A stretch of DNA of 64,000 nucleotides from Odiellus spinosus (lineage: Eukaryota; Arthropoda; Arachnida; Opiliones; Phalangiidae): the NCBI GenBank assembly GCA_963920705.1, contig OY987226.1:30504424-30568423 (forward strand), written 5' to 3'. The position numbers and the translations under genes are program-made. A model generated the notes under the pieces. That model made no database searches and was not told the DNA's origin. It worked only from the letters and a program-made list of their open reading frames with translations. Every line of letters begins with the position of its first letter. Position 1 is the stretch's first letter. Positions 1-60,400 of this stretch are shown here, piece by piece.

Positions 1-2
1 TT

Positions 3-119
3 AACAATTTAAATATCCAATTAATTACTGAAATTTTTAATAATTCAACTTTTTTAAGTTTCGAATTTTGTAAGCAAATGGTGACTAGAATTATTTGCAT
101 TTCGAAACAATATTTGTAA
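3..119 (+). CDS. 3' end of PC4-like/HPSQ-motif protein, left-arm copy (partial)
   Basis: The window opens inside the last exon of this gene. The 38 codons before the TAA at 117-119 are identical in translation to the end of the complete mirror copy at 8242-9115. An AATAAA signal at 126-131 follows the stop, which suits a short 3'UTR. The rest of the gene, including the PC4-like region and promoter, must lie upstream of the window if the palindrome continues. See the right-arm copy for function. Confidence 0.85.
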   Translation, partial: NNLNIQLITEIFNNSTFLSFEFCKQMVTRIICISKQYL

Positions 120-273
120 ATACAAAATAAAATTCCGAATTTCAAACTCTTAAATATGACATTTCTTAATATTGATATCAAAAGTAGGCAAATAAAACTT
201 TCATATTCTGTTCATATCAAATGGGTAAGGATAATTTCCCCAGAGTGGAAAGGGTGAGAAAAAGGACTTAGAA

Positions 274-296
274 TTAATCAGTGACTCATTGTTTAA
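274..296 (+). promoter_or_regulatory. Shared upstream element with AP-1 core, zinc-finger gene
   Basis: A 23-bp block centred on TGACTCA lies about 80 bp upstream of the zinc-finger ATG. It matches the block at 1770-1792 upstream of the second gene at 21 of 23 positions. TGACTCA is the consensus AP-1 (Fos/Jun) site. Its reuse before two otherwise unrelated genes of one element suggests a common promoter element; mirror copy at 8065-8087. Confidence 0.6.
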
Positions 297-376
297 TTAT
301 CAAAGTTTAAGTTCTCACCAAGCAGCATCATCTCTTCCGGTAATACTAAAAGTCTTTAACTGAAGTTAGTTACATT

Positions 377-1536
377 ATGGTCATCTGTCGCAATTGTGGG
401 GCTAAGTTTTCCCAAGCTGGAAGCTTACTTCAACATGCTCGAGAAAAGCACGAGTATGAAGAATTCCCGTGTAAATTTTGCAACGTATACTTCACAAAGA
501 AGGAGCACCTCACCATCCATAGTCTATCCCGCCATAAGGAAGAAACGAGTCGTGAATACATCCTGAAACGAGCTCGATCCATGGAATCTATCGAGAACGT
601 TAAGAAGACGAAGATGAACGAGACTACATCCCAGACTATCGCCATAATCACATCTATCAACGATGTCCCGTCATCCTCCAGCGATGTCCCGTCCACTTCT
701 ACCGATGATCCATCATCACCCAACGATGTCTTATCACCTTCCAACGATGTCCCGATCACTTCAGCTGATGGTCCGTCCGTCCCCAACGTAGCTCCAGACG
801 TTTCATTTACCACATCATCAAACATCCAACCCGCTGAGAACCTTAACAACGACAGGAAGAATTCACATCAACCCTTCTGCCTATATGTATGTGCGAAGAA
901 CGAAATTTATTCGATGTTTATGGCCCAACACTCGTCGGGTCGTGAATTATCACTCCACGATTTATATAAAATACTTCCAATCGTCCAAGACTTGGAAGAA
1001 ATATTCGTAAAAAGTACAATGGAGTATTACGAAGATTTTATAGATGTATACGGGGATGATGAGGGCGAGTGGGATGACGTGCTGAATGATTCCTTAAACA
1101 TAATTATAGATCCGAGCGTCAAGTTATCATGGTTTCAATACAATAGAGTGTTGAATACAGAATACAGTGACCCACCCCCATACATCATAACAGGTAATCA
1201 CATTATCACATCGTACTATTCGGTGCGTAGGAAATATTTTGAGAAGTATCGAAGATTACGTATGTGTAGCGATTGCTTCCAGTTGAAGGCGTTATATCTT
1301 CCGAAGACGACGTTGATCACATTCAATACCACGGATACATAAACCCCGAAAACGTAGGAGAAATAGTCACCAACGTGTTTGCTACATGGTGTAACAATTG
1401 TTTACGTACGCCCTTATTTAAATTTTTGGATGATGTACGTTGTAAAGTATTAACTAAGTTTCATGTTGATAAAATTAATTTATTTACTACCGAAGAGAAT
1501 GACGACGTACGAACGGCTATAAAACGTAGCAAATAA
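377..1536 (+). CDS. Two-finger C2H2 zinc-finger protein, 356 aa, one intron (left arm)
   Basis: Exons 377-1193 and 1283-1536. The intron 1194-1282 (89 bp) has a GTAATC donor and a TTCCAG acceptor; splicing joins a one-base overhang to two bases and restores the frame, so the downstream ORF becomes the C-terminus. Seen: two tandem C2H2 fingers (C4, C7, H20, H25 and C32, C35, H48, H53), a low-complexity Ser/Pro linker with a repeated NDVPS-like unit (about 93-140), then an acidic C-terminal part with two further CxxC pairs that matches no family I recognise. The ATG at 377 gives intact finger 1. AATAAA at 1593-1598 is a likely polyadenylation signal. The fingers suggest a DNA-binding nuclear protein; the role in the element is unknown. 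An unspliced read would end at 1342 as 321 aa. Confidence 0.8.
1194..1282 (+). other. Spliceosomal intron of the zinc-finger gene (left arm)
   Basis: 89-bp GT-AG intron; removal changes frame by two and links the two overlapping ORFs. Mirror copy at 7079-7167. Supported by phase only, not by transcript data. Confidence 0.7.
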
Positions 1537-1769
1537 ATTTGCCATTTTCATGTACAATTTTCATGTGTATAATCAATAATAGTGTTTAATTCAATAAAAT
1601 GGGATATATTAATCTTTCTACTGAAAATCTCTTATTTTTTTCTAACTTCACCATCCTACGAACATTATCACGTTTATCTCTACAAATATTTTCTTATAAC
1701 GAGAAATAGTTTCTTTCCTTTCATCATTTAAAAATAAACAAGATTCAACTCAAACGTTGTTTCCCCATC

Positions 1770-1813
1770 TTAATCGGTGACTCATGGTTTAAGATAATAG
1801 GAGGGTATAAATA
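1770..1813 (+). promoter_or_regulatory. Core promoter of the Cys-rich gene: AP-1-type block plus TATA box
   Basis: The TGACTCA block (1770-1792) is followed 13 bp later by TATAAATA at 1806-1813. A probable start of transcription lies about 30 bp further on. Mirror copy at 6548-6591. Confidence 0.65.
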
Positions 1814-1915
1814 GTGAATTTTTCAAATCCTAATCATCACAACCTACAACCCCATCCTCGTCAAAAGGAAGAGAAAAAAGAAATCTTCACCTCCATCTCC
1901 AGAAAATTTCTATCG

Positions 1916-2323
1916 GTAAGCATGAAATATATTTTAACGCTGTTAAAATAGGTATTTACGTTAACTCTTAGTTGAAATATAAAATAGCTTTCTACACTAA
2001 ACTTTAGTTTAAATATAAAACAATATATTTTAACGTAGTATTTAAAGTAGTTATCTTCGCTAACTTTTAGTTTAAATTTAAAATAGTTTTCCACGATAAA
2101 CTCTAGTTTAAATATACAATAGTCTTCTTCGTTAACCTATAGTTTAAATATAAAATAGATATCTACGTTAATCTTTAGATAGGGTATAGAAATTGATTCA
2201 TAGTATTCCCAAGTCAATCCATATTTAGTTGAGAATTCATTATTGGGTATCAATTAGAGCGTATAGTTCAACTTCTTCAAAATCGTTATTTATCTCCAAA
2301 GTGATCATATATTTTGTCTTTAG
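1916..2323 (+). other. 5'UTR intron of the Cys-rich gene (left arm)
   Basis: GTAAGC donor at 1916 after a noncoding first exon (about 1838-1915) and a TTTTGTCTTTAG acceptor ending at 2323, 11 bp before the ATG at 2335. The intron is AT-rich and has six or so degenerate copies of a 'taaactnnagtttaaatataaaatag' type unit. The short reading frame 1861-2094 on the other strand is a by-product of that repetition. Confidence 0.6.
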
Positions 2324-2334
2324 ATCAATCAACA

Positions 2335-2619
2335 ATGGCCGAATGGTGTGAAGTACCCCGCAATTATCAACTCTCTTGCCCGAGATGGGATAACGATCTC
2401 GCGTCAGTTCCAGCTCTCGGGAAACTGCTACACTTTTACATGTCCCGTGATTGCTGTCAACACAGGAAGTGTGTATTGATTCAACAAAAGAAGTATTACC
2501 GTCCGTCATTATCGAGTGAACAGGCAGTAATGCCTGATGAGCGGTTGCTCTGCTGGTGGTGTTCAGGGTTTAAATATACGATAAAAAATATTTGTGATTG
2601 CATAAAAATAAATTGTTAA
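2335..2619 (+). CDS. Small cysteine-rich protein, 94 aa (left arm)
   Basis: The ATG at 2335 sits in good context (AACAATGG) just after a splice acceptor, with TATA box and noncoding exon upstream. An in-frame ATG at 2314 lies inside the predicted intron, so it is not preferred. Cysteines fall at 5, 15, 40, 41, 46, 73, 76, 87, 89 and 94, with a CxxC at 73-76, which suggests a zinc-binding or disulfide-rich fold. A basic Tyr/Lys stretch lies between the two Cys groups. No family recognised. The reverse-strand frame 2240-2509 overlaps it but has no promoter or splice signals. Mirror copy at 5742-6026. Confidence 0.6.
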   Translation: MAEWCEVPRNYQLSCPRWDNDLASVPALGKLLHFYMSRDCCQHRKCVLIQQKKYYRPSLSSEQAVMPDERLLCWWCSGFKYTIKNICDCIKINC

Positions 2620-4080
2620 TTAAAATTTTTATCGTAAATGAATCCAATCTCTGAAATTATTTATACTTAAGCCTACTATATTTAGTAAAGCCTACAAATA
2701 ACGTCGGATATCTAAGTTAGCCTATACCAATCTAGGATATATATATATATATATGACAATATTCAAGCTAATCGAAATAGAATAATAAAGGGGAATTATG
2801 AAATTGTTCGAGATAAATGAGTAAAAATGACTAAACACCGTCATAAAATGTCCAATCGTCGAGAAAAAATCGTGTGAAAAAGACGAAAAATCTCAATCTT
2901 TAAGCGTGACACAAATTAAAGGCGCAAGAAACGTCTAAGTATCGGGAGAGTCTAACTAACTAGATTAAGTAACAAAGACGGGAGTGTAAGCGTCGAACGC
3001 ATTGATAAAAATTGTAAATAGAAAATATGATAAATAAAACTGAAAAAAAGTACGTTGAAATTGATTAGCGGTGGGACAAATTAATTAAACCGTGAAAAAC
3101 GTCTAAGTATCGATAGAAGATAATAAGGTTGTGAAAGAAAATTGTTAATGTAATGAAAACATCAAAGACGCAGATAAATGATTGAAACCGGTGTAATATA
3201 TTAAAAAAACGGGAGTAAAATTGTCTAAAGACGCAGATAAATAATTGGAACCGGTATAATATATTAAAAAGACGGGAGTAAAATTGTCTAAGAGCCGTCA
3301 TAAAATGTATAAGCGTCGAACAAAATGATCTAAAATTAGGGAAAACGATAAAAATGTTTAAGTCGTGAAATAGTTTAACAAAGTTGGAAGATAAAACGTC
3401 CAAGTGTCGGGAAAATAACGAAGATGCGGATATTAATGTCGGAGACTCAAAACTAAATAGGAAAGGAGAGGGATTTTAATATTGAAATACCGAAAGAAGT
3501 TAACACTTGATTCGTAAAAATACAATGTTTCTGTAAAATAACAGAAACTCGACAAAAGCATTATTACTCTTTGGGTTAGTTTCTTGTACGTATTTTCTAC
3601 GAATACTATGCCGCGACGTGATGATAATTTAACCGCGCGTGTTTAAAATTTGAATCGCACACGTGAACCGCTTAACATAGAGATAAGCAAAAACACGACT
3701 ACAGTTTCTGGGACGTTTTTAGCAAGGCTCAATCGTAAAAAGAAGCAAAATCCGCTTTCAACCTTTTCACCAGTATACGATAAAACGACGAAAAATTTGT
3801 TTATTCGGTAAAACAAATTAACATAACCGTGAAAAAAAGTCTAAATATTGGAGAAGTTAATATAAAGCGGAATGAAACGTCTAAGTTTCGGCATAAACAA
3901 CAGCAATGTCGAAGAAGCGAAACAAAATAACAGGTCTAAATCAAGGGAGAAATTAAGAAAGACGTAAGAAAAACATCTAATTAACGAGATAAGGAAGCGA
4001 AGACGGGAATGAAAATGTGAAGGTACGTCATAAAATATCCAAGTGTCGAATCAAATTAACAAAATCGTGGGTAAAATTGT
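2620..4080. repeat. Gene-free arm interior with degenerate ~25-bp reiterations (left arm)
   Basis: No convincing gene. A degenerate word of the form 'aaacgtctaagtrtcggga' recurs at about 2848, 2928, 3100, 3298, 3390, 3835, 3868 and 4036, and a 60-bp unit is duplicated at 3170-3295. A (TA)n tract lies at 2740-2753. The block 3600-3700 has CACGTG followed by AGAGATAAG, shared with the 9.7-10.3 kb repeats. The frame 3065-3403 is a by-product of the reiterations. Mirror copy at 4281-5741. Confidence 0.65.
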
Positions 4081-4280
4081 TTTTAGTCACCATCCTCATC
4101 GTCGACGATTCTAACCTAACCTAACTTCGCGAAATTACATCAGGATGAATGGCGGGGCGCCTCTTTTCAATCTCCTTGGCGGATCGCCAAGGAGTTGACG
4201 GCGCCCCGCCATTCATCCTGATGTAGTTTCGCGAAGTTAGGTTAGGTTAGAATCGTCGACGATGAGGATGGTGACTAAAT
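4081..4280. repeat. Central nested hairpin of palindrome 1
   Basis: An outer stem (ggcggggcgcc 4151-4161 with ggcgccccgcc 4200-4210) encloses an inner perfect 9-bp stem (ctccttggc 4172-4180 with gccaaggag 4186-4194) and a 5-nt loop, ggatc. The connecting strands are unequal (10 nt at 4162-4171, 5 nt at 4195-4199), so an asymmetric bulge separates the stems. Outside are a self-complementary atcgtcgacgat and three TTAGG-like units in each arm. GC-rich stems in an AT-rich setting and the built-in asymmetry resemble hairpin telomeres (parvovirus-type or other hairpin-ended linear genomes); that link is inference. Confidence 0.8.
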
Positions 4281-5741
4281 ACAATTTTACCCACGATTTT
4301 GTTAATTTGATTCGACACTTGGATATTTTATGACGTACCTTCACATTTTCATTCCCGTCTTCGCTTCCTTATCTCGTTAATTAGATGTTTTTCTTACGTC
4401 TTTCTTAATTTCTCCCTTGATTTAGACCTGTTATTTTGTTTCGCTTCTTCGACATTGCTGTTGTTTATGCCGAAACTTAGACGTTTCATTCCGCTTTATA
4501 TTAACTTCTCCAATATTTAGACTTTTTTTCACGGTTATGTTAATTTGTTTTACCGAATAAACAAATTTTTCGTCGTTTTATCGTATACTGGTGAAAAGGT
4601 TGAAAGCGGATTTTGCTTCTTTTTACGATTGAGCCTTGCTAAAAACGTCCCAGAAACTGTAGTCGTGTTTTTGCTTATCTCTATGTTAAGCGGTTCACGT
4701 GTGCGATTCAAATTTTAAACACGCGCGGTTAAATTATCATCACGTCGCGGCATAGTATTCGTAGAAAATACGTACAAGAAACTAACCCAAAGAGTAATAA
4801 TGCTTTTGTCGAGTTTCTGTTATTTTACAGAAACATTGTATTTTTACGAATCAAGTGTTAACTTCTTTCGGTATTTCAATATTAAAATCCCTCTCCTTTC
4901 CTATTTAGTTTTGAGTCTCCGACATTAATATCCGCATCTTCGTTATTTTCCCGACACTTGGACGTTTTATCTTCCAACTTTGTTAAACTATTTCACGACT
5001 TAAACATTTTTATCGTTTTCCCTAATTTTAGATCATTTTGTTCGACGCTTATACATTTTATGACGGCTCTTAGACAATTTTACTCCCGTCTTTTTAATAT
5101 ATTATACCGGTTCCAATTATTTATCTGCGTCTTTAGACAATTTTACTCCCGTTTTTTTAATATATTACACCGGTTTCAATCATTTATCTGCGTCTTTGAT
5201 GTTTTCATTACATTAACAATTTTCTTTCACAACCTTATTATCTTCTATCGATACTTAGACGTTTTTCACGGTTTAATTAATTTGTCCCACCGCTAATCAA
5301 TTTCAACGTACTTTTTTTCAGTTTTATTTATCATATTTTCTATTTACAATTTTTATCAATGCGTTCGACGCTTACACTCCCGTCTTTGTTACTTAATCTA
5401 GTTAGTTAGACTCTCCCGATACTTAGACGTTTCTTGCGCCTTTAATTTGTGTCACGCTTAAAGATTGAGATTTTTCGTCTTTTTCACACGATTTTTTCTC
5501 GACGATTGGACATTTTATGACGGTGTTTAGTCATTTTTACTCATTTATCTCGAACAATTTCATAATTCCCCTTTATTATTCTATTTCGATTAGCTTGAAT
5601 ATTGTCATATATATATATATATATCCTAGATTGGTATAGGCTAACTTAGATATCCGACGTTATTTGTAGGCTTTACTAAATATAGTAGGCTTAAGTATAA
5701 ATAATTTCAGAGATTGGATTCATTTACGATAAAAATTTTAA
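4281..5741. repeat. Gene-free arm interior, mirror copy (right arm)
   Basis: Reverse complement of 2620-4080 with the same reiterated words and the duplicated 60-bp unit (5066-5190). No additional gene seen. Confidence 0.65.
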
Positions 5742-6026
5742 TTAACAATTTATTTTTATGCAATCACAAATATTTTTTATCGTATATTTAAACCCTGAAC
5801 ACCACCAGCAGAGCAACCGCTCATCAGGCATTACTGCCTGTTCACTCGATAATGACGGACGGTAATACTTCTTTTGTTGAATCAATACACACTTCCTGTG
5901 TTGACAGCAATCACGGGACATGTAAAAGTGTAGCAGTTTCCCGAGAGCTGGAACTGACGCGAGATCGTTATCCCATCTCGGGCAAGAGAGTTGATAATTG
6001 CGGGGTACTTCACACCATTCGGCCAT
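5742..6026 (-). CDS. Small cysteine-rich protein, 94 aa (right arm)
   Basis: Mirror copy of 2335-2619 with identical translation. Its 5'UTR intron maps to 6038-6445 and TATA box to 6548-6555. Same doubts and features as the left copy. Confidence 0.6.
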   Translation of the reverse strand: MAEWCEVPRNYQLSCPRWDNDLASVPALGKLLHFYMSRDCCQHRKCVLIQQKKYYRPSLSSEQAVMPDERLLCWWCSGFKYTIKNICDCIKINC

Positions 6027-6824
6027 TGTTGATTGATCTAAAGACAAAATATATGATCACTTTGGAGATAAATAACGATTTTGAAAAAGTTGAACTATAC
6101 GCTCTAATTGATACCCAATAATGAATTCTCAACTAAATATGGATTGACTTGGGAATACTATGAATCAATTTCTATACCCTATCTAAAGATTAACGTAGAT
6201 ATCTATTTTATATTTAAACTATAGGTTAACGAAGAAGACTATTGTATATTTAAACTAGAGTTTATCGTGGAAAACTATTTTAAATTTAAACTAAAAGTTA
6301 GCGAAGATAACTACTTTAAATACTACGTTAAAATATATTGTTTTATATTTAAACTAAAGTTTAGTGTAGAAAGCTATTTTATATTTCAACTAAGAGTTAA
6401 CGTAAATACCTATTTTAACAGCGTTAAAATATATTTCATGCTTACCGATAGAAATTTTCTGGAGATGGAGGTGAAGATTTCTTTTTTCTCTTCCTTTTGA
6501 CGAGGATGGGGTTGTAGGTTGTGATGATTAGGATTTGAAAAATTCACTATTTATACCCTCCTATTATCTTAAACCATGAGTCACCGATTAAGATGGGGAA
6601 ACAACGTTTGAGTTGAATCTTGTTTATTTTTAAATGATGAAAGGAAAGAAACTATTTCTCGTTATAAGAAAATATTTGTAGAGATAAACGTGATAATGTT
6701 CGTAGGATGGTGAAGTTAGAAAAAAATAAGAGATTTTCAGTAGAAAGATTAATATATCCCATTTTATTGAATTAAACACTATTATTGATTATACACATGA
6801 AAATTGTACATGAAAATGGCAAAT

Positions 6825-7984
6825 TTATTTGCTACGTTTTATAGCCGTTCGTACGTCGTCATTCTCTTCGGTAGTAAATAAATTAATTTTATCAACATGA
6901 AACTTAGTTAATACTTTACAACGTACATCATCCAAAAATTTAAATAAGGGCGTACGTAAACAATTGTTACACCATGTAGCAAACACGTTGGTGACTATTT
7001 CTCCTACGTTTTCGGGGTTTATGTATCCGTGGTATTGAATGTGATCAACGTCGTCTTCGGAAGATATAACGCCTTCAACTGGAAGCAATCGCTACACATA
7101 CGTAATCTTCGATACTTCTCAAAATATTTCCAACGCACCGAATAGTACGATGTGATAATGTGATTACCTGTTATGATGTATGGGGGTGGGTCACTGTATT
7201 CTGTATTCAACACTCTATTGTATTGAAACCATGATAACTTGACGCTCGGATCTATAATTATGTTTAAGGAATCATTCAGCACGTCATCCCACTCGCCCTC
7301 ATCATCCCCGTATACATCTATAAAATCTTCGTAATACTCCATTGTACTTTTTACGAATATTTCTTCCAAGTCTTGGACGATTGGAAGTATTTTATATAAA
7401 TCGTGGAGTGATAATTCACGACCCGACGAGTGTTGGGCCATAAACATCGAATAAATTTCGTTCTTCGCACATACATATAGGCAGAAGGGTTGATGTGAAT
7501 TCTTCCTGTCGTTGTTAAGGTTCTCAGCGGGTTGGATGTTTGATGATGTGGTAAATGAAACGTCTGGAGCTACGTTGGGGACGGACGGACCATCAGCTGA
7601 AGTGATCGGGACATCGTTGGAAGGTGATAAGACATCGTTGGGTGATGATGGATCATCGGTAGAAGTGGACGGGACATCGCTGGAGGATGACGGGACATCG
7701 TTGATAGATGTGATTATGGCGATAGTCTGGGATGTAGTCTCGTTCATCTTCGTCTTCTTAACGTTCTCGATAGATTCCATGGATCGAGCTCGTTTCAGGA
7801 TGTATTCACGACTCGTTTCTTCCTTATGGCGGGATAGACTATGGATGGTGAGGTGCTCCTTCTTTGTGAAGTATACGTTGCAAAATTTACACGGGAATTC
7901 TTCATACTCGTGCTTTTCTCGAGCATGTTGAAGTAAGCTTCCAGCTTGGGAAAACTTAGCCCCACAATTGCGACAGATGACCAT
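6825..7984 (-). CDS. Two-finger C2H2 zinc-finger protein, 356 aa, one intron (right arm)
   Basis: Mirror copy: exons 7168-7984 and 6825-7078, intron 7079-7167. Splice sites, fingers and C-terminus are the same as in the left copy. The one coding-frame difference noted, an Arg/Trp change, falls inside the intron when spliced, which fits selection on, or extreme youth of, the exons. Confidence 0.8.
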
Positions 7985-8241
7985 AATGTAACTAACTTCA
8001 GTTAAAGACTTTTAGTATTACCGGAAGAGATGATGCTGCTTGGTGAGAACTTAAACTTTGATAATTAAACAATGAGTCACTGATTAATTCTAAGTCCTTT
8101 TTCTCACCCTTTCCACTCTGGGGAAATTATCCTTACCCATTTGATATGAACAGAATATGAAAGTTTTATTTGCCTACTTTTGATATCAATATTAAGAAAT
8201 GTCATATTTAAGAGTTTGAAATTCGGAATTTTATTTTGTAT

Positions 8242-9115
8242 TTACAAATATTGTTTCGAAATGCAAATAATTCTAGTCACCATTTGCTTACAAAATTCGA
8301 AACTTAAAAAAGTTGAATTATTAAAAATTTCAGTAATTAATTGGATATTTAAATTGTTAATCGCAGTTGAAAAATTCATTTCTACACGCTCAACCCAATC
8401 ATAGGTTAAACAATCGTGCTGTAATTGCGATGGATGGTCAATGAGACACCCGTTACAGGAGTTTTTAATAAGTTCCGTTAGCTGTGAAACTACTATGTCC
8501 TTTATAGCTTGGTAGACTTTCTTAGTTTCGTTAAGCATGATTTCAACTTGTTGATGCTTTTCCAAGAGTTTCTCCCATAGAACTCTTCCGATGGCGAATC
8601 CATTTTTAGTGGGAAATAACATCCCATAGTTCTTCCCGTTTCCCGTCGTCATTTCACGGATATTAAGCATCTTCCGGTCCTGGTATGACTTGAGTTCCAC
8701 CCGTTTATTGTTTGACCCTTCCAAGAAAACTGATGAAGGACTTGCACCCTCGTTTTGGAAGTATTGCATGATTTCTTCCCTCATTCGGTATATTTGAAAG
8801 TACTCATTCTCGCTGAGATTAATTCCAGTGGATCCATCAGTAAATCCAAGTCTAATTTCACATTCGGGAGTAACTGCGACCGATTTGCTCGATGAGATTT
8901 CGAATACGTTCGTGTTGTCCCTGTAAATGATAGAAACGGCTAAGTTAATTGAGGTTTTATACTAATAATAAGATGTCAGGAATAAAAATTACTAAGTTAT
9001 TTAAGAACACAGTGAAAATTTCAAAGTTATTTAGGGTTAGGTTAATAATTTCTAAGTTATTTAGGGTGGCAGAAATAATTTCTAAGTTAATTTTAGAGTA
9101 AAATGGTACTTACAT
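8242..9115 (-). CDS. PC4-like ssDNA-binding/coactivator-type protein with Cys-HPSQ-His-Cys motif, 226 aa
   Basis: Exons 9114-9115 and 8242-8920. The first exon ends in AT, the second begins with G after a TTTACAG acceptor, so splicing the 193-bp intron (8921-9113, donor GTAAGT) creates the ATG; the frame is then open to the stop at 8242. Residues about 73-130 resemble the PC4/p15 (Sub1) fold: basic strand, 'IRE' strand, Gly/Lys-rich loop, 'NGFAIG' and a helix with Trp. Residues about 20-55 look like a second, weaker half of the same pattern (GINLS then helix). Residues about 153-171 have CNGC, then HPSQ, then HDC, a compact likely zinc site. PC4 proteins bind single-stranded or melted DNA and act in transcription or replication. 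The family call rests on pattern recognition only. An upstream in-frame ATG inside exon 2 (8784) would give 180 aa. Confidence 0.7.
8921..9113 (-). other. Intron that splits the start codon of the PC4-like gene
   Basis: 193-bp GT-AG intron between the AT and the G of the initiator. It contains degenerate 'tttctaagttatttagggt' repeats (8990-9100). Confidence 0.65.
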
Positions 9116-9188
9116 TTTTAGTGTTCTTGTGGATGACTGGAATACGGTTGATGGCAGCTTTAAATGACTTATCTAAAATATATCCTAG

Positions 9189-9196
9189 CTTTTATA
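9189..9196 (-). promoter_or_regulatory. TATA box of the PC4-like gene
   Basis: TATAAAAG on the minus strand, about 75 bp before the split start codon; leaves a noncoding leader of roughly 45 nt. Confidence 0.65.
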
Positions 9197-9204
9197 CCCA
9201 TAAA

Positions 9205-9410
9205 TAAGCGTCATATCTGTACTTAAAGTTGGGAAATAGATTTTACCAATGACGTATTGGGTTTTTACTAAGCGATTCAGCGTCAAATCAGTACTTGAGT
9301 TGGGAAATAGGTTTTACCAATGACGCGTAGGCTTTTACCAAGCGTCATATCAGTACTTGAACTTGGGAAATACGTTTTACCAATGCCGTGTAGGGTTTAA
9401 CCACGAGCTT
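9205..9410. repeat. Three ~68-bp tandem repeats
   Basis: The unit 'agcgtcatatcagtacttg' followed by 'gggaaatangttttaccaat' and 'gacgygtaggnttttac' occurs three times upstream of the PC4-like promoter. May be promoter-associated reiteration or simple tandem repeat. Confidence 0.7.
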
Positions 9411-9659
9411 TAATTGTATATATCATTAGGGTATTTCAATTTTCATACACGTTGTAATTAGGCCTAACTTTCCAATTTTAATTTGATTTCGTGGTGTTCG
9501 CCAACTTGTTTGAGTATTTTTCCGCATTTACTATAATGTTTTAGACAAATAATCGTATATTTGCAGTTTAAATTTATAGTTATGTTTACTTGGAGAAATT
9601 CTTCTAGTTATTTGTTAAGATATATTTGAATATCCATCTATTTATCTGGTGTGTTTTGA

Positions 9660-10440: not shown

Positions 10441-10446
10441 AGAAAA

Positions 10447-10526: not shown

Positions 10527-10570
10527 AAAAAAAAAAATAAAATAAAAAAATAAAATAAAAAAATAAAATT

Positions 10571-49421: not shown

Positions 49422-49599
49422 ACTTTGTTTGAAAGGGCTTTTCGCTAATATTAAAATAGGGATGGAATTTTGTCTTTACGACAAGTGAAAACTAAAACGA
49501 GCGAAAACTGCTCAAATGGACGAGAAGCCACCACTCATATCAGCCAAACTGAAATGAGAATTTTAGGCTTTTTCAGGCGAGGCGTAAAATCCGTCAAAT

Positions 49600-50722: not shown

Positions 50723-51123
50723 AGTTCCGAAACAACGACAAGACTGGAGTTGTATGATAATATAGTCTTTTGGGTTCAGCATCCTCGGCTATTTTTTTTT
50801 TCATTTTTTATTTTAAAAAATGATTACTGGGGCTAGCGAAGGCGGGTTGATTTGAATTCTCACACGTTATGTAAAGCGTTTTATAAAAAAATTTTACCCT
50901 CTCTTATAACTTCGGCTCATTTACTATCGATGAACTCCAGCGTATAACTAGCTAAGTATATCCAAACTTCCTCGAAGACATTTCTGAATTAAACTCGGTG
51001 AAACGAATTTATTTTAATAAACGAAGCAGTGAAGCTGAGAGCTTGTTTCGCTTCGCGCGCTTAAAAAAAGAAGAGGGGGGAGGCAGTATATAAATAATGA
51101 GCGTTTAAGAGAACGGGGTTGCA

Positions 51124-51780
51124 ATTTCCCATAGGGATAACATGGGGTTTCGGGTCCGTTGGCGTTTTCAGGAGCCGTTCATGCCGCGAGACAGGCGACC
51201 CTTAGCCGACGGGACTATATAGATTACCGTCGAATTTCGGGTGACGGGCTGGTCCGATATTGCCGGCTAAACGCGACAGCAGGAGGATTGTTCACTGATT
51301 AACATGGGGTTCTATGAGATATTATCGGCCTAACACTGAGCACGGGCGAACGTCGATTTCAATGGGATTATAATTTCTACCGGCTTCACGCGAGAGCGTG
51401 GTAAGGGCGGTCACTTTGACCGTTGACTCCGTTAAGCTATAACATGGGGTTCTATGAGATATTATCGGCCTAACACTGAGCACGGGCGAACGTCGATTTC
51501 AATGGGGTTATCATTTCTACCGACTTCACGCGAGAGCGTGATAAGGGCGGTCACTTTGACCGTTGAGCTATAACATGGGGGTCTATGGTAGCATCTCGTT
51601 ACAGTTGTACGCGGACACCGAGCATGGGGGGGCTACGTTTCGACCAACGATTTCAATGGGGTTATCATTTCCACCGGCTTCACGCGAGAGCGTGGTAGGG
51701 AAAGTGTTGTTATCGGCCTAACATGTCACTGAGCGTCGATTTCAATGGGCTTATCATTTAACGCGGGGGTCTGTGGGAGA
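51124..51780. repeat. 131-bp terminal repeats with IR3 motifs, left arm
   Basis: Units with 'aacatggggttctatgagat', 'acttcacgcgagagcgtg' and GGTCACTTTGACC (51409-51421, 51549-51561). Three copies are full or partial here; the mirror set in the right arm (59590-60360) has one extra. Confidence 0.88.
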
Positions 51781-51959
51781 ACGATATTTGGTAGGGTTCA
51801 AACGTACGACGATAGGAAAGAGCAAAGCCACGCTCGCTTATCAGTATGAATATTCGGGCTTCATTTTATTTATTTCCACGCTATCACAGTCGACAAGCTC
51901 GCGCACAAAATTTTACGATTTCAAATGTTTATCACCTCGAAATATATAGTTTTATTTAC

Positions 51960-53420
51960 ATACTTCCAATCAATCCTCCTCGTCTTATTCTGAATGAAAG
52001 ACGGTAAAATCTTTATAGATAAGCGCTCCTTTCATTTGTACGTATTGTGTAAAATCCGGAAATGAATTTGGACACTGAAAAAGGGTGAAACATATGGAAT
52101 AGGACTATCTTCTTCAAAAACTACACTAGATGGGTATTTTGTAGGTTGGGTAGGACATCGAGCGATTAGGCAGACTCGGAATTACGGTTATTCCGGTGGG
52201 GTGGTCACTTCAACCGTCGATCAATAACGTAAGGTTCTATGGGACCGTCAGTTTTGACTGTCTATTATTATTATCATGAGGGTGTATGGAAAGTCGTTAT
52301 TATTTTTTATACGACGACAGAGGACAGGACGACGGTACTTTGACCTCCGAGCTTAACAATTATCACGGGGGGTACTTATCATCTTGGTGCGTTGGAAAAT
52401 TTCCAGAGTACTTCAAACGTACGACGAAAGGAAGAGCGACACGGTACCCATTTTTAGGTTAATTTAGCTTCTCAAGACGTTAAATATCACATGGCTGGTA
52501 CACCCGGGGGAGAAAATTTTACGATTTCATATGTTTATATCCTTGAAATATATAGTTTTATTTACACACTCTAATTCAGTTCCTCGTGTTATTCTGAATG
52601 AAAGGAGGGTGAATTTTTGTAGATAAGCGTTCCTTTAACTTATAAGTATTTTGTTTATAAAATCCTGAAATGAATTTATATGACTAGAAAAGAGTGAAAC
52701 ATATGGAATAAGACTACTTCAAAATCGACACTTGAAGGGTATTTTGTAGATTCGGTAGGGCATCGAGCGATTAGGTGGACTCGGAATTACGGTTATTCTG
52801 GTGGGGGTGGTCACTTCAACCGTCGATCAATAACATAGGGTTCTATGGAACCACGAGTTTCGAACTGTCTATTATTATTATCATGAGGGTGTATGGAAAG
52901 TCGTTATTATTTTTTATACGACGACAGAGGACAGGACGACGGTACTTTGACCTCCGAGCTTAACAATTATCACGGGGGTACTTATCACCTGGGTGCGTTG
53001 GAAAATTTCCAGAGTACTTCAAACGTACGACGAAAGGAGGAGTGACACGGCACCCATTTTTATCATTTTTTGGTTAATTTAACCTTTCAAGATGTTAAAT
53101 ATCACTTTACCAGCATCTTTGATACACTCGGGGAGAGAAAATTTTACGATTTCATTTGTTTATATCCTTGAAATATATAGTTTTATTTACACACTCTCAA
53201 TCAATCCTCCCCGTGTTATTCTGAATGAAAGGCGGGTGAATTTTTAAAGATAAGCGGTCCTTTAATTTGCACGTATTGTATATATAAAACCCGGAAATGA
53301 ATTTATATGCCTAGAAAAGAGTGTAACATATGGAATAGGTCTATCTACTTCAAAAGCGATATAGATGTTTACGGGTATTTTGTATATTCGGTAGGGCATC
53401 GAGCGATTACATGGTCTCGG
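51960..53420. repeat. ~610-bp tandem repeats, left arm
   Basis: Three units, recognised by 'tattctgaatgaaag' at about 51987, 52593 and 53217 and 'catcgagcgattag' or 'catcgagcgattac' at about 52158, 52759 and 53397. Mirror set at 57943-59400. The frames at 52775-52963 and 58399-58587 lie in this repeat and are not convincing genes. Confidence 0.88.
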
Positions 53421-53430
53421 GATATTTACA

Positions 53431-53688
53431 CTACCAGGGAGACCGATGGGAATGCGTATTCAAATACTCGGCATTAAAAGTGGGTAGAGTAGGGTATTTT
53501 TCTGGATGATACAAGTTAATATGTCTCTCGAAATTCAGCGTAGAATTCGGGGGGAAACACCGGTTCTCTAGCCTATCCTTCAAATTAAGTGACCCTACAA
53601 ATGATACTTCACGTTGAACTGTACATACTATAGAAATACACGTCGGTTTTCTAATACTTGTAAATTTATGATTGGGAAGTGTATACAT
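53431..53688 (-). CDS. Possible 85-aa protein divergent from the 209-aa gene (left arm)
   Basis: Open in the left arm only: the right copy has one base fewer in a 5-6 base C/G run (left six at 53549-53554), which shifts the frame. The protein has several Cys and a C-terminal 'HINLYHPEKYP'; no family. The start lies 139 bp from the 209-aa gene, sharing an intergenic region with a TATA-like agatatatg. Could be spurious. Confidence 0.35.
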   Translation of the reverse strand: MYTLPNHKFTSIRKPTCISIVCTVQREVSFVGSLNLKDRLENRCFPPNSTLNFERHINLYHPEKYPTLPTFNAEYLNTHSHRSPW

Positions 53689-53827
53689 TTTTTGAAATAA
53701 AAATTAAATTAAATTTGTGTGTTTTACTAAGCGGTTGAGAATAAATAGCGTTTATTAGATATATGAAAGTATCACTCTCGCTACCCCGCCTTGAAGTAAC
53801 TACTAAATCATTTTCAAATTAAAAACC

Positions 53828-54524
53828 ATGGAATCTAAGACCGCACCAACCGTCTGTACTATCGTCTACAACGCGGCGTTAGGGTTAATAGCCCCTAATT
53901 TAGTACTAACATTTAAATTATTCGAAATAATTATCCGCAAATACCATCAATCCTGGCATAATGGGATTTCACTCGACGAACCCGCCTGTCAGATCAGGGT
54001 TGACCTACCATACCACGCTAATCTTGAAAACATCCGAAGGAATGGGTTAAAAAAAAGCCGCGAATTCATTACAGTAAGTTTCTAAACTACTATTTTATTT
54101 TTGTTTCTCTTTGTATTTATTTACGTTTCTTAACGTGGAGAAAATCTGCATGCCGGTAGACGGGGAGTCGGAAATGTCCGACACCCTCGCCTTCTTGGGG
54201 TTCCAAGTTGCATCACCCACATCAGTGGCTGCTCTCCCGATACCGGACACTACCCTTCAACCGGTCATTTCTACATCCGATGTATCGTCTTTCCAGCCTA
54301 CTCTAGTTACCCCCTCGACCGTACATTCACTGTCATCTTCGTCTACGTACAACATCTGGGATGCCGAGAGTGTGTCGGAATCGACCGTAGTCCCCGAATT
54401 AAGCTCCACCAACCTGAGGAAAAGGTCACAGGTTGTAGGGGAAGCTAAAAAGAAACAGAAGATGAAGCCCATCATAGAGACAGATGCGTTACAACGGATA
54501 ATTGATGAGACATTAAATATATAA
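53828..54524 (+). CDS. Spliced 209-aa protein of unknown family (left arm)
   Basis: Exons 53828-54073 and 54141-54524; the 67-bp intron (54074-54140) has a strong GTAAGT donor, a pyrimidine-rich tract and GTGGAG acceptor, and is phase 0. The N-terminal 82 residues hold a hydrophobic segment (about 10-35, 'ALGLIAPNLVLTFKLFEIII') and a conserved-looking 'PACQIRVDLPYH'. The C-terminal part is Ser/Thr-rich and ends with a basic cluster (RKR and KKKQKMK, about 175-191), a likely nuclear signal. ATG context is ACCATGG. AATAAA-type signal overlaps the stop. No family recognised. Confidence 0.65.
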
Positions 54525-54714
54525 ATAAAAATGATTAAAAATATGTTTATTCTCCCTTTTGCATTTTATTAAGCATACTTTCAGATATGATATCATATCC
54601 TTATAAATCAATGGTTCACTTTAAACTGGTGAACTAGGGAGGGTAAGACAAAGTTTGGGGGGTATTATCTCAAAATCGTTCATTTACAAGAATTTTTTCT
54701 TCCACGAAACAGCT

Positions 54715-54736
54715 CGTTTAGAAATATTTCTAAACG
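54715..54736. repeat. Perfect 22-bp palindrome
   Basis: cgtttagaaat mirrored exactly as atttctaaacg, surrounded by several 'cgatcgattttagtcgagtt'-like words between the two genes of the arm (54690-54960). Possibly a protein-binding site. Mirror copy at 56627-56648. Confidence 0.8.
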
Positions 54737-54993
54737 ATCGATTTTAGTCGAGTTTTTGAAACCTAAATAGTCGCTTTTAGTCGAGTTTTTTCCTACGTCT
54801 AATGTTAATCCTATGATAAAGTCGTTTCCTCATCGATCGATTTTGATAGAGTTTTTCAAAACTAATTGATCGCTTTTGTAGAGATAAAATTAAACTATCA
54901 ACTTAAAATCGATCGTTTAGGTTAACAATTACCATCCTAAAAGCGATTGTTTAAAAAGTGCTATACTGGGGTTAACACACACGCATCCATACG

Positions 54994-55191
54994 ATGAAGA
55001 TAGTACGCTTTAATAATACTATACAAATTTATCAAATTCCCGACGACGAAGACCGGCGGAATTACACTATATTAGACGCTATAAGATTTAGAAGGCGGAT
55101 TAACAAAATAGAATTATTATTAAAACCTCTATTGACAGAAAAACTTAGGATGATATATGATGAACCTCGCCCCTTCGATTCGATTAGTTGA
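54994..55191 (+). CDS. PPP1R15/GADD34-like minimal eIF2alpha-phosphatase regulator, 65 aa (left arm)
   Basis: Residues 2-6 (KIVRF) fit the PP1-docking RVxF motif. Then a short strand, DDEDR (17-21), a helix-forming stretch and RFRRRI (31-36), followed by an amphipathic helix. This is the order seen in the C-terminal core of PPP1R15A/B, which recruits PP1 to dephosphorylate eIF2alpha and restart translation; some DNA viruses have the same core as a small stand-alone protein. Host PPP1R15 proteins are much longer. TATA-like ttaaaaagtgc about 35 bp upstream; AATAAA at about 55256. The right-arm copy (56172-56369) is identical in translation. The family call is by motif only. Confidence 0.6.
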   Translation: MKIVRFNNTIQIYQIPDDEDRRNYTILDAIRFRRRINKIELLLKPLLTEKLRMIYDEPRPFDSIS

Positions 55192-55407
55192 TTTATAAAT
55201 AGGCAATCTAAATTTCTAGGGGTACTCCTTGAGATGTCTCTTCAAAACTGTAATTAAATAAAAAAGACTTGTAAATAATCGGAGTGTTTACGTATAAGGT
55301 TTTTCCGACTTTTTTCAAAAACGACTTTCACTACAAGAACTTTCTCACGGTACCCGGTTTTAAATAAGGTTTTTCCCCTCGATGCCAGAAAAGTTTTTTT
55401 TAAATAG

Positions 55408-55415
55408 TATATATA
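55408..55415 (+). promoter_or_regulatory. TATA box facing the spacer (left arm)
   Basis: TATATATA about 70 bp before the ATG at 55484. The mirror copy at 55948-55955 faces the spacer from the right. Confidence 0.6.
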
Positions 55416-55483
55416 CTCGAACTACAGCATCTGAAAACCATCATTCTACCGAATTCAGAACTATACCATACATAAATTAAAAT

Positions 55484-55963
55484 ATGTCGAACATCATAAT
55501 CGAGCTCGAGTATTTGAATGGGAGGAACCGTCGCAGAACTTTCGGGAATGGCCCCGACATAGTGATAAAGGAGGTGGCGATAGCTGCTGTAGACGTCTGT
55601 CCATCGGTAGCTGCATGGACCGTTGCTGCCCCGTATGCTGCTTCATCCATCCCCAACACCATTACAATCACCAACAGTTACATCACCCGGAATATACACG
55701 GGTTATCCTTTGAGGATGGTGATATACCGTACTGCCGATTGGAGGATCTCCTCCACCGGCATACGCGGCAAGCCGAGTCCCTATGGACAACCGGCGATCA
55801 CTATGTCGGGGCCATTCCCGAAAGTTCTGCGACGGTTCCTCCCATTCAAATACTCGAGCTCGATTATGATGTTCGACATATTTTAATTTATGTATGGTAT
55901 AGTTCTGAATTCGGTAGAATGATGGTTTTCAGATGCTGTAGTTCGAGTATATATACTATTTAA
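55484..55963 (+). CDS. ORF reading across the palindrome spacer, 159 codons
   Basis: Codons 1-27 lie in the left arm, about 28-104 in the unique spacer, and the rest is the antisense of the left-arm start, so the true 3' part may be spliced off or meaningless. The start (MSNIIIELEYLNGRNRRR) has a TATA box. From the right arm the same start reads only 32 codons (55879 down to 55781) before a stop, so only one orientation yields a long product. A Thr/Ile-rich middle; no family. Uncertain. Confidence 0.45.
   Translation: MSNIIIELEYLNGRNRRRTFGNGPDIVIKEVAIAAVDVCPSVAAWTVAAPYAASSIPNTITITNSYITRNIHGLSFEDGDIPYCRLEDLLHRHTRQAESLWTTGDHYVGAIPESSATVPPIQILELDYDVRHILIYVWYSSEFGRMMVFRCCSSSIYTI
55567..55796. 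other. Unique spacer of palindrome 2
   Basis: 230 bp not mirrored. Contains only the middle of the spanning ORF and a short foldback (ggaggatctcc). Analogous in place to the loop of palindrome 1 but much longer and without a GC-rich stem. Confidence 0.85.
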
Positions 55964-56171
55964 AAAAAACTTTTCTGGCATCGAGGGGAAAAACCTTATT
56001 TAAAACCGGGTACCGTGAGAAAGTTCTTGTAGTGAAAGTCGTTTTTGAAAAAAGTCGGAAAAACCTTATACGTAAACACTCCGATTATTTACAAGTCTTT
56101 TTTATTTAATTACAGTTTTGAAGAGACATCTCAAGGAGTACCCCTAGAAATTTAGATTGCCTATTTATAAA

Positions 56172-56369
56172 TCAACTAATCGAATCGAAGGGGCGAGGTT
56201 CATCATATATCATCCTAAGTTTTTCTGTCAATAGAGGTTTTAATAATAATTCTATTTTGTTAATCCGCCTTCTAAATCTTATAGCGTCTAATATAGTGTA
56301 ATTCCGCCGGTCTTCGTCGTCGGGAATTTGATAAATTTGTATAGTATTATTAAAGCGTACTATCTTCAT
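56172..56369 (-). CDS. PPP1R15/GADD34-like minimal regulator, 65 aa (right arm)
   Basis: Mirror copy of 54994-55191 with identical protein. Upstream and downstream signals are mirrored too. Confidence 0.6.
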   Translation of the reverse strand: MKIVRFNNTIQIYQIPDDEDRRNYTILDAIRFRRRINKIELLLKPLLTEKLRMIYDEPRPFDSIS

Positions 56370-56838
56370 CGTATGGATGCGTGTGTGTTAACCCCAGTAT
56401 AGCACTTTTTAAACAATCGCTTTTAGGATGGTAATTGTTAACCTAAACGATCGATTTTAAGTTGATAGTTTAATTTTATCTCTACAAAAGCGATCAATTA
56501 GTTTTGAAAAACTCTATCAAAATCGATCGATGAGGAAACGACTTTATCATAGGATTAACATTAGACGTAGGAAAAAACTCGACTAAAAGCGACTATTTAG
56601 GTTTCAAAAACTCGACTAAAATCGATCGTTTAGAAATATTTCTAAACGAGCTGTTTCGTGGAAGAAAAAATACTTGTAAATGAACGATTTTGAGATAATA
56701 CCCCCCAAACTTTGTCTCACCCTCCCTAGTTCACCAGTTTAAAGTGAACCATTGATTTATAAGGATATGATATCATATCTGAAAGTATGCTTAATAAAAT
56801 GCAAAAGGGAGAATAAACATATTTTTAATCATTTTTAT

Positions 56839-57535
56839 TTATATATTTAATGTCTCATCAATTATCCGTTGTAACGCATCTGTCTCTATGATGGGCTTCA
56901 TCTTCTGTTTCTTTTTAGCTTCCCCTACAACCTGTGACCTTTTCCTCAGGTTGGTGGAGCTTAATTCGGGGACTACGGTCGATTCCGACACACTCTCGGC
57001 ATCCCAGATGTTGTACGTAGACGAAGATGACAGTGAATGTACGGTCGAGGGGGTAACTAGAGTAGGCTGGAAAGACGATACATCGGATGTAGAAATGACC
57101 GGTTGAAGGGTAGTGTCCGGTATCGGGAGAGCAGCCACTGATGTGGGTGATGCAACTTGGAACCCCAAGAAGGCGAGGGTGTCGGACATTTCCGACTCCC
57201 CGTCTACCGGCATGCAGATTTTCTCCACCTTAAGAAACGTAAATAAATACAAAGAGAAACAAAAATAAAATAGTAGTTTAGAAACTTACTGTAATGAATT
57301 CGCGGCTTTTTTTTAACCCATTCCTTCGGATGTTTTCAAGATTAGCGTGGTATGGTAGGTCAACCCTGATCTGACAGGCGGGTTCGTCGAGTGAAATCCC
57401 ATTATTAAAGGATTGATGGTATTTGCGGATAATTATTTCGAATAATTTAAATGTTAGTACTAAATTAGGGGCTATTAACCCTAACGCCGCGTTGTAGACG
57501 ATAGTACAGACGGTTGGTGCGGTCTAAGATTCCAT
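56839..57535 (-). pseudogene. 209-aa protein gene, right-arm copy with nonsense codon
   Basis: Same exon-intron layout (exons 57290-57535 and 56839-57222), but codon 4 is TAG where the left arm has AAG. Other changes include a four-base difference altering Trp-His to Phe-Asn and one change next to the acceptor. Exon 2 alone is still open. So the right copy probably cannot make the full protein. Confidence 0.75.
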
Positions 57536-57942
57536 GGTTTTTAATTTGAAAATGATTTAGTAGTTACTTCAAGGCGGGGTAGCGAGAGTGATACTTTCAT
57601 ATATCTAATAAACGCTATTTATTCTCAACCGCTTAATAAAACACACAAATTTAATTTAATTTTTATTTCAAAAAATGTATACACTTCCCAATCATAAATT
57701 TACAAGTATTAGAAAACCGACGTGTATTTCTATAGTATGTACAGTTCAACGTGAAGTATCATTTGTAGGGTCACTTAATTTGAAGGATAGGCTAGAGAAC
57801 CGGTGTTTCCCCCGAATTCTACGCTGAATTTCGAGAGACATATTAACTTGTATCATCCAGAAAAATACCCTACTCTACCCACTTTTAATGCCGAGTATTT
57901 GAATACGCATTCCCATCGGTCTCCCTGGTAGTGTAAATATCC

Positions 57943-59400
57943 CGAGACCATGTAATCGCTCGATGCCCTACCGAATATACAAAATACCCGTAAACATCTA
58001 TATCGCTTTTGAAGTAGATAGACCTATTCCATATGTTACACTCTTTTCTAGGCATATAAATTCATTTCCGGGTTTTATATATACAATACGTGCAAATTAA
58101 AGGACCGCTTATCTTTAAAAATTCACCCGCCTTTCATTCAGAATAACACGGAGAGGATTGATTGAGAGTGTGTAAATAAAACTATATATTTCAAGGATAT
58201 AAACAAATGAAATCGTAAAATTTTCTCTCCCCGAGTGTATCAACGATGCTGGTAAAGTGATATTTAACATCTTGAAAGGTTAAATTAACCAAAAAATGAT
58301 AAAAATGGGTGCCGTGTCACTCCTCCTTTCGTCGTACGTTTGAAGTACTCTGGAAATTTTCCAACGCACCCAGGTGATAAGTACCCCCGTGATAATTGTT
58401 AAGCTCGGAGGTCAAAGTACCGTCGTCCTGTCCTCTGTCGTCGTATAAAAAATAATAACGACTTTCCATACACCCTCATGATAATAATAATAGACAATTC
58501 GAAACTCGTGGTTCCATAGAACCCTATGTTATTGATCGACGGTTGAAGTGACCACCCCCACCAGAATAACCGTAATTCCGAGTCCACCTAATCGCTCGAT
58601 GCCCTACCGAATCTACAAAATACCCTTCAAGTGTCGATTTTGAAGTAGTCTTATTCCATATGTTTCACTCTTTTCTAGTCATATAAATTCATTTCAGGAT
58701 TTTATAAACAAAATACTTATAAGTTAAAGGAACGCTTATCTACAAAAATTCACCCTCCTTTCATTCAGAATAACACGAGGAACTGAATTAGAGTCTGTAA
58801 ATAAAACTATATATTTCAAGGATATAAACATATGAAATCGTAAAATTTTCTCCCCCGGGTGTACCAGCCATGTGATATTTAACGTCTTGAGAAGCTAAAT
58901 TAACCTAAAAATGGGTACCGTGTCGCTCTTCCTTTCGTCGTACGTTTGAAGTACTCTGGAAATTTTCCAACGCACCAAGATGATAAGTACCCCCCGTGAT
59001 AATTGTTAAGCTCGGAGGTCAAAGTACCGTCGTCCTGTCCTCTGTCGTCGTATAAAAAATAATAACGACTTTCCATACACCCTCATGATAATAATAATAG
59101 ACAGTCAAAACTGACGGTCCCATAGAACCTTACGTTATTGATCGACGGTTGAAGTGACCACCCCACCGGAATAACCGTAATTCCGAGTCTGCCTAATCGC
59201 TCGATGCCCTACCCAACCTACAAAATACCCATCTAGTGTAGTTTTTGAAGAAGATAGTCCTATTCCATATGTTTCACCCTTTTTCAGTGTCCAAATTCAT
59301 TTCCGGATTTTACACAATACGTACAAATTAAAGGAGCGCTTATCTATAAAAATTTTACCCGTCTTTCATTCAGAATAAGACGAGGAGGATTGATTGGAAG
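57943..59400. repeat. ~610-bp tandem repeats, right arm
   Basis: Mirror of 51960-53420. No added content. Confidence 0.88.
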
Positions 59401-59589
59401 TATGTAAATAAAACTATATATTTCGAGGTGATAAACATTTGAAATCGTAAAATTTTGTCCGCGAGCTTGTCGACTGTGATAGCGTGGAAATAAATAAAAT
59501 GAAGCCCGAATATTCATACTGATAAGCGAGCGTGGCTTTGCTCTTTCCTATCGTCGTACGTTTGAATCCTACCAAATATCGTTCTCCCA

Positions 59590-60360
59590 CAGACCCCCGC
59601 GTTAAATGATAAGCCCATTGAAATCGACGCTCAGTGACATGTTAGGCCGATAACAACACTTTCCCTACCACGCTCTCGCGTGAAGCCGGTGGAAATGATA
59701 ACCCCATTGAAATCGTTGGTCGAAACGTAGCCCCCCCATGCTCGGTGTCCGCGTACAACTGTAACGAGATGCTACCATAGACCCCCATGTTATAGCTCAA
59801 CGGTCAAAGTGACCGCCCTTATCACGCTCTCGCGTGAAGTCGGTAGAAATGATAACCCCATTGAAATCGACGTTCGCCCGTGCTCAGTGTTAGGCCGATA
59901 ATATCTCATAGAACCCCATGTTATAGCTCAACGGTCAAAGTGACCGCCCTTAGCACGCTCTCGCGTGAAGCCGGTAGAAATGATAACCCCATTGAAATCG
60001 ACGTTCGCCCGTGCTCAGTGTTAGGCCGATAATATCTCATAGAACCCCATGTTATAGCTCAACGGTCAAAGTGACCGCCCTTACCACGCTCTCGCGTGAA
60101 GCCGGTAGAAATGATAACCCCATTGAAATCGACGTTCACCCGTGCTCAGTGTTAGGCCGATAATATCTCATAGAACCCCATGTTAATGAGTGAACAATCC
60201 TCCTGCCGTCGCGTTTAGCCGGCAATATCGGACCAGCCCCTCACCCGAAATTCGACGGTAATCTATATAGTCCCGTCGGCTAAGGGTCGCCTGTCTCGCG
60301 GCATGAACGGCTCCTGAAAACGCCAACGGACCCGAAACCCCATGTTATCCCTATGGGAAA
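59590..60360. repeat. 131-bp terminal repeats with IR3 motifs, right arm
   Basis: Mirror of 51124-51780 with one extra 131-bp unit (unit starts at 59791, 59922, 60053). GGTCAAAGTGACC at 59802-59814, 59933-59945 and 60064-60076. Confidence 0.88.
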
Positions 60361-60400
60361 TTGCAACCCCGTTCTCTTAAACGCTCATTATTTATATACT

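Follow-up and report, generated by a model that had tools for sequence, protein, structure and literature searches.

The window analysed here is a stretch of 64,000 nucleotides from Odiellus spinosus (contig OY987226.1, positions 30,504,424 to 30,568,423), and it carries two giant palindromes, elements with near-identical inverted arms. Both had been pointed out in a first-pass annotation and both are real, with palindrome 1 larger than was stated there: it starts 2,310 bp left of the window and measures 12,982 bp in full (C2:30502113-30515094, window -2310..10671). Very probably, palindrome 1 derives from a Maverick (Polinton), as an integrated and non-autonomous element in which one end of the parent is present in two head-to-head copies. 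Palindrome 2 is likely to be an element of this kind from a second Maverick lineage. Palindrome 1 and its relatives in the genome are referred to below as family 1.

The two palindromes and their genes

Palindrome 1 is cut by the window edge, and its in-window arms (1-4161 and 4200-8360) are 100% complementary across a spacer of 38 nt. A single strand of the centre (4081-4280) is predicted by folding to form one long hairpin (z -31). The 38-nt core is present in all six copies read, with a 1-nt difference in one and inverted in another (C6). The inverted core of the C6 copy was considered as a parvovirus-like flip/flop and dropped: when the arms are near-perfect mirror images, inverting the core amounts to inserting the element in the opposite orientation.

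Each arm carries a PC4-like gene, predicted to bind single-stranded DNA (ssDNA), a C2H2 zinc-finger gene and a small predicted gene. The zinc-finger gene is a composite, whose first ~148 residues are 41% identical to the N-terminus of a predicted polymerase gene in longer relatives, and whose remainder matches a different gene, at C1:3343956. In several palindromes (copies C6, C11, C12, C3 and C5), its reading frame breaks at residue 198/199 on each of the two arms, which may reflect a broken gene or frameshifting. The small gene has a predicted 5' intron with 36-bp repeats and an open reading frame (ORF) of 94 aa at 2335-2619; its promoter module, which in this gene reads GTGACTCAT...GGGTATAAATA, is of a type common to the palindrome 1 genes and the polymerase gene. 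Small spliced genes with TATA boxes had been described in both palindromes; the TATA boxes are present, and the splicing was read by eye only. Two short segments of the palindrome 1 inner arm, 35 and 49 bp long, also match the region that separates the polymerase from the protease in the longer relatives. A block resembling this inner arm occurs twice, ~2 kb apart, within C1:3334001-3344000.

Pfam searches of the palindrome ORFs tested in the window returned no polymerase, integrase or capsid, and those of the arm ORFs tested returned no transposase. The earlier statement that such replication and capsid genes are lacking thus holds at the level of Pfam on these ORFs, with the qualification that the 5' end of the predicted polymerase gene has a counterpart in the zinc-finger gene. 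Scans of viral contigs with the PC4, zinc-finger and protease queries gave no relatives, nor did a protein search with the zinc-finger gene.

Palindrome 2 has arms at 51085-55566 and 55797-60400, made up of pieces that are 98-100% identical, around a spacer of 230 nt. Arm divergence is 1.0% overall and ~0.6% outside the core-bearing stretch. The two palindromes had been called unrelated in sequence; this is correct for their genes and incorrect for their tips, as the 13-mer ATGAGCGTTTAAG is common to the tips of palindrome 2 and those of a family-1 palindrome at C2:18206317-18218089. The centre of palindrome 2 lies in a gene whose frame continues to 55963 through mirrored antisense sequence, and whose protein has at least 141 matches in the genome, mostly to residues 1-108. 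At C18:1660130-1660590 there is a close relative of the arm and centre that is not palindromic, 95-97% similar over 225 and 104 bp. Its native sequence runs on past the point at which palindrome 2 turns, which indicates that the palindrome centre cuts the central gene. This locus also offers a lead to the parent element of palindrome 2. The listing of a second protease lineage, which is 33-36% identical to the first, comprises 24 loci, and each of them has a homologue of the central gene 145-336 bp downstream of the protease, in the same orientation; this tally used 70 of the 141 central-gene rows and the 24 protease rows of 33-36% identity. Palindrome 2 is thus placed as probably the same kind of derivative, from this second Maverick lineage. 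Two matches, at C18:1660228 and C275:984067, had been taken as palindromic copies of palindrome 2 and were withdrawn, because any copy with the same upstream DNA yields opposite-strand matches; the native continuation at the turn rules out the C18 locus, which is the non-palindromic relative above.

Table 1. Features of the two palindromes; positions are those of the window unless a contig is named
Feature	Position	Strand	Basis or remark
Palindrome 1, in-window part	1..10671	.	self-alignment, exact tips, perfect target site duplication AAGCTA
PC4-like gene, left copy	C2:30504000-30504539 (window -423..116)	+	matched by PC4 genome search
C2H2 zinc-finger gene, left copy	377..1342	+	Pfam and genome matches
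Small predicted gene with TATA promoter module, left copy	1801..2619	+	splicing by eye; left coordinates by symmetry
Palindrome 1 asymmetric centre, 38 nt	4162..4199	.	self-alignment
94-aa ORF of small gene, right copy	5742..6026	-	same ORF as at 2335-2619
C2H2 zinc-finger gene, right copy	7019..7984	-	genome matches
PC4-like gene, predicted ssDNA-binding, right copy	8242..8784	-	PF02229 E=4e-7
Palindrome 1 right arm, outer end; tip AGTAGTATGATTTTACC...	10372..10671	-	tip common to two PC4-plus-protease elements
Target site duplication AAGCTA, right copy, 6 bp	10672..10677	.	AAGCTA also at left end
Palindrome 2, 9,316 bp	51085..60400	.	self-alignment
Palindrome 2 left tip AGTATATAAATAATGAGCGTTTAAG	51085..51109	+	tip reading
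Subterminal tandem repeats, left arm	51300..51566	.	period 140 as reported
Predicted two-exon gene, left copy	53828..54524	+	mirror 56839-57535 (-); splicing by eye
65-aa ORF, left copy	54994..55191	+	mirror 56172-56369 (-), by symmetry
Central gene, native part, residues 1-108	55484..55807	+	homologues match residues 1-108
Palindrome 2 centre, 230 nt	55567..55796	.	self-alignment; non-palindromic relative
Subterminal tandem repeats, right arm	59776..60185	.	period 131, more units than left
Palindrome 2 right tip, AGTATATAAATAATGAGCGTTTAAG inverted	60376..60400	-	tip reading

Maverick-type tips, genome copies and longer relatives

The ends of family 1 carry the Maverick signature. According to PMC8097293, vertebrate Mavericks end in 5'-(AGT)2//(ACT)2-3' and are flanked by 6-bp target site duplications (TSDs). 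All eight family-1 elements read at both tips have perfect 6-bp TSDs that differ from one another, and their tips open with AGTAGT in seven cases and AGTAGG in one (C6). Six of these elements are palindromes (TSDs AAGCTA, TATAGA, CAAGTA, GCTGGA, AATATA and CCTCGG), and two are relatives with shorter inverted ends, namely a mini form on C12 (TACGAA) and C2:31063410-31070937 (TATCCG), both read by eye. The C12 form, at C12:7229741-7232222, is a 2.5-kb miniature with both tips present, apparently a deleted form, and the palindrome copy with TSD GCTGGA (C17:3433808-3447039) is inserted in what appears by eye to be a tRNA-Gln gene. Two unpaired elements with both a PC4-like gene and a protease, C5:2930731 and C5:5796827, open on their PC4 side with the terminal repeat of palindrome 1.

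The distribution of family 1 was examined in the genome from which the window comes (443 Mb in 286 contigs; a COX1 frame with ten TGA codons on contig C286 is consistent with an animal mitochondrion). Four genome searches scored the best candidates, so that the counts given here are lower bounds and absences hold among the matches listed. The zinc-finger protein gave 125 matches, reduced to 106 places after removal of secondary fragments; at least 44 of these fall, with spacings below 20 kb, into at least 22 convergent pairs, with no divergent pair. The PC4-like protein gave 151 matches, of which 150 were used as places, forming at least 29 convergent pairs versus a single divergent one. These 29 pairs represent 27 separate loci (C73 and C9 were counted twice), and one is doubtful (C5:2257218, whose arms match the query at 86% and 42% identity). 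Of 14 loci read, nine are palindromic, six of them over their full length and three (L048, L049 and L054) symmetric at the centre.

The protease, for which 139 of 150 rows were used, shows the opposite pattern. None of the 29 convergent PC4 pairs encloses a listed one, whereas at least 69 of the 150 PC4 places are followed by a listed protease no more than 12 kb downstream (opposite strand in 41 cases, same strand in 28). None of these 69 belongs to a convergent pair, and 25 of the 150 places are neither paired nor accompanied by a protease. Among the matches listed, paired and protease-bearing places are therefore mutually exclusive, which indicates that the palindromes keep the PC4/polymerase end and lose the protease end. 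As far as sequence goes, family 1 retains the tip, the gene for the PC4-like protein and the predicted polymerase gene in its 5' part, and the protease side is missing. Neither the palindrome ORFs tested with Pfam nor the PC4 pairs show the full asymmetric gene set of a Maverick, and the palindromes are accordingly classed as Maverick derivatives, not as full members.

In the longer relatives, the zinc-finger gene extends for ~600 residues and then, across introns placed by eye, reaches an endonuclease-VII-type domain (PF02945 E=4e-7). Beyond it, exons carry the motifs DCNNLYG, NNAVFG and TDTDSL in that order (L046/L047, by eye), which we take to be those of a family-B polymerase. Behind this predicted polymerase, on the opposite strand, lies an adenovirus-type cysteine protease. 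Its homologue P0016 carries PF00770, weak PDB matches link it to adenain and to S273R of African swine fever virus, and the His, Gln and Cys residues, presumably catalytic, are invariant in seven sequences. A genome search with PF03175 (best 77 of 571 candidates) did not have the element tied to palindrome 1's gene among the matches listed, and an ORF fetched from the family that it did find was not clearly alike to the predicted polymerase gene tied to palindrome 1. This other polymerase family is numerous and distinct, with open frames of up to about 1,300 aa and more. An ORF at C1:3345561-3345878 (L041) includes a stretch that looks dUTPase-like by eye and has no Pfam match.

The first-pass annotation had proposed an element class that recurs in the genome, virus-like or selfish, integrated as head-to-head dimers and perhaps non-autonomous; further palindromes in the genome and larger relatives with a replication gene should then be found. 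Further palindromes were read for family 1, and larger relatives with a predicted polymerase exist. The genome copies and TSDs bear the proposal out for this family; for palindrome 2 it is only probable.

Other features of the window lie beside or between the palindromes. A reverse transcriptase ORF at 10571-12358 (PF00078 E=8e-10; Penelope-like by eye) adjoins palindrome 1. It was considered as part of that element and dropped, because the frame opens in the terminal repeat and its Penelope-like part lies beyond the tip. The left flank (C2:30499864-30501944) has an inverted match to this ORF, so that palindrome 1 seems to sit between the two members of an inverted pair. At 25519-27031 the window has another, smaller inverted repeat, its third, which has a weak match to DDE_3 (E=0.064) and is possibly mariner-like, and a 23-bp tandem repeat at 37620-38089 comprises 20 copies with 97% matches.

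Origin of the palindromes and competing explanations

The assignment of palindrome 1 as a snap-back, non-autonomous Maverick derivative mobilised in trans is firm, and that of palindrome 2 is probable. The origin of such structures is suggested by their turn points. At C5:5286872, the turn falls inside a polymerase-like 3' exon, where 158 of 160 flanking positions pair. The junction reads ...ACTCAA-14 nt-TTGAGT, a 6-nt inverted repeat, and native-gene residues run up to the turn (by eye). This is what would be expected if a 3' end had folded back on the 6-nt inverted repeat, and fold-back copying is deduced from such junctions as the probable origin. Turn points differ among loci: the centre at C12:8012151 has no match to the palindrome 1 arm, and C17:4925956 has the core of palindrome 1.

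In the proposed mechanism, a 3' end would fold back at a short inverted repeat during strand-displacement replication and be copied to the same tip again. This would yield a linear inverted dimer, each end of which has an origin and an integrase site. Full Mavericks would supply the polymerase, the integrase and perhaps the capsid in trans; they are the most likely source of these enzymes, given that copies whose polymerase gene is truncated occur at several sites to which they have spread. Each new copy would pass through a hairpin or single-arm intermediate, in which one arm serves as the template for rewriting the other. That one end is favoured suggests that it holds a cis-acting signal, and the PC4/polymerase end may have been kept for a packaging signal or promoter, as in defective genomes of adenovirus and adeno-associated virus (AAV).

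The state of the arms is consistent with such rewriting. In six elements, mismatch between the arms of one element is 0.08-0.17%, versus 0.42-3.9% between elements, and stop codons are common to both arms (C149:3638740/3647400, C5:2876855/2882896 and C2:18208358/18215146). Both observations indicate that one arm has been rewritten from the other, and they show the arms of family 1 to be maintained as copies of each other. Hairpin copying at each mobilisation would explain this identity. The rival account is that the palindromes are ordinary inverted duplications kept alike by chromosomal gene conversion, with no special replication step. Arm identity and common stops alone cannot separate conversion from copying, but this account is unlikely in view of how the elements begin and end. 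The duplication stops exactly at the transposon tips and was inserted as a unit with TSDs, and a single centre is found at six sites, which indicates that this family arose once and then spread. The residual divergence of the palindrome 2 arms outside the core region and their unequal number of tandem repeats further imply that conversion is at least incomplete.

The same observations bear on the remaining alternatives. Inverted chimeras are a known sequencing artefact, and chimeric reads collapsed into palindromes could in principle give arms of this kind; the idea can practically be dismissed, because the elements read at both tips have different perfect TSDs, palindromy ends at the tip and excludes the flank, and six copies that are 0.4-3.9% apart nevertheless have one common centre. 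A separate class of foldback-type transposons, with its own transposase and captured Maverick genes, would account for the long inverted arms and subterminal tandem repeats, which resemble those of Galileo. Such a class is very improbable, since the tips agree with published Maverick tips, as does the length of the TSD, the tip is common to PC4-plus-protease elements, and Pfam found no transposase in the arm ORFs tested. The palindromes might also be autonomous, forming a hairpin-replicating virus lineage of their own. The long near-perfect central hairpin would suit this, as would C5:5286872, where each arm is polymerase-like in coding sequence right up to the centre, so that some palindromes may still encode much of the polymerase. 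Autonomy is nonetheless quite improbable: palindrome 1 retains only the N-terminal part of the polymerase gene (~148 residues), several palindromes have stops in both arms, and the listed protease is missing from the PC4 pairs.

Several points weigh against the derivation from Mavericks by fold-back copying. Arm identity could stem from chromosomal gene conversion, and among eight further centres read, four (L050-L053) lack symmetry around the predicted midpoint and a fifth (L055) has an AT repeat there, so the convergent pairs are not all shown to be palindromic. The parent polymerase has weak profile matches (PF03175 E=0.022 in one exon; BLAST E=0.003 to a PF03175 protein), the other three polymerase-like exons have no Pfam polymerase match, and for the exons tried no polymerase match was found in PDB (one exon), NCBIfam or PHROGs. 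The protease match (PF00770 E=0.001) falls just under the Pfam cut-off, and a fragment beside the protease matches a double jelly-roll capsid weakly (PF21738 E=0.022). The element with polymerase-like exons (C5:12316001-12322300) is known from its interior, and full-length elements are known from PC4-side tips or interiors. Palindrome 2 has no TSD (flanks GGAGGC/TATTTA), its tip AGTATA holds a single AGT, no second palindromic copy of it is shown, and the 4-nt inverted repeat seen by eye at its turn (TGAT/ATCA) could be due to chance.

If the derivation is true, the palindromes are a fossil record of defective Maverick genomes. Mavericks would then have linear DNA as their replicating form, copied by strand displacement and subject to fold-back errors, their gene products would act in trans, and the end with the essential cis signals would be revealed. 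Maverick particles "have not been observed", as stated in the abstract of PMC8097293, which makes the end bias, resembling that of packaged defective genomes, a testable lead. Being fixed in the genome does not make the palindromes active. A more tentative possibility is that they are self-perpetuating Maverick satellites, snap-back half-genomes of more than one origin and at least two lineages, rewritten through a hairpin at each jump and parasitic on full Mavericks. Such satellites may even be heritable anti-Maverick RNA-silencing loci, as transcription into the palindrome centre would give a long hairpin RNA directed against the PC4 and polymerase genes of Mavericks.

Relation to known systems

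Galileo-type foldback transposons have very long inverted repeats and subterminal tandem repeats, and differ from the palindromes in their termini and in having a transposase. Symmetric defective genomes of the adenovirus left end are inverted duplications of the end that holds the origin and packaging signal. They share with the palindromes an end duplicated in inverted form on a protein-primed linear genome, protein priming being a presumption for the palindromes, and differ in that they are not heritable insertions.

Mavericks (Polintons, also polintoviruses or adintoviruses) correspond to family 1 in their AGT-repeat tips and 6-bp TSD, which palindrome 2 does not display, and in the predicted polymerase and adenovirus-type protease of the relatives. 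The palindromes differ from them in lacking the protease side, in carrying one end twice and in their unique centre, and a PC4-like gene does not figure in the gene lists given in passages of PMC4028283 and PMC8097293. Among the titles and abstract openings listed by searches of the open-licence PMC literature, no description of palindromic Mavericks was found.

A similar layout is that of the AAV 5' snapback subgenomes, a type of defective interfering particle, which are described in the abstract of PMC8235507 as keeping the promoter and part of rep with one end duplicated. In both cases, one end with a promoter and part of a replication gene is arranged head to head, a likeness of layout only. 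AAV is a parvovirus, whereas the palindromes are fixed in the genome with TSDs and have been amplified there.

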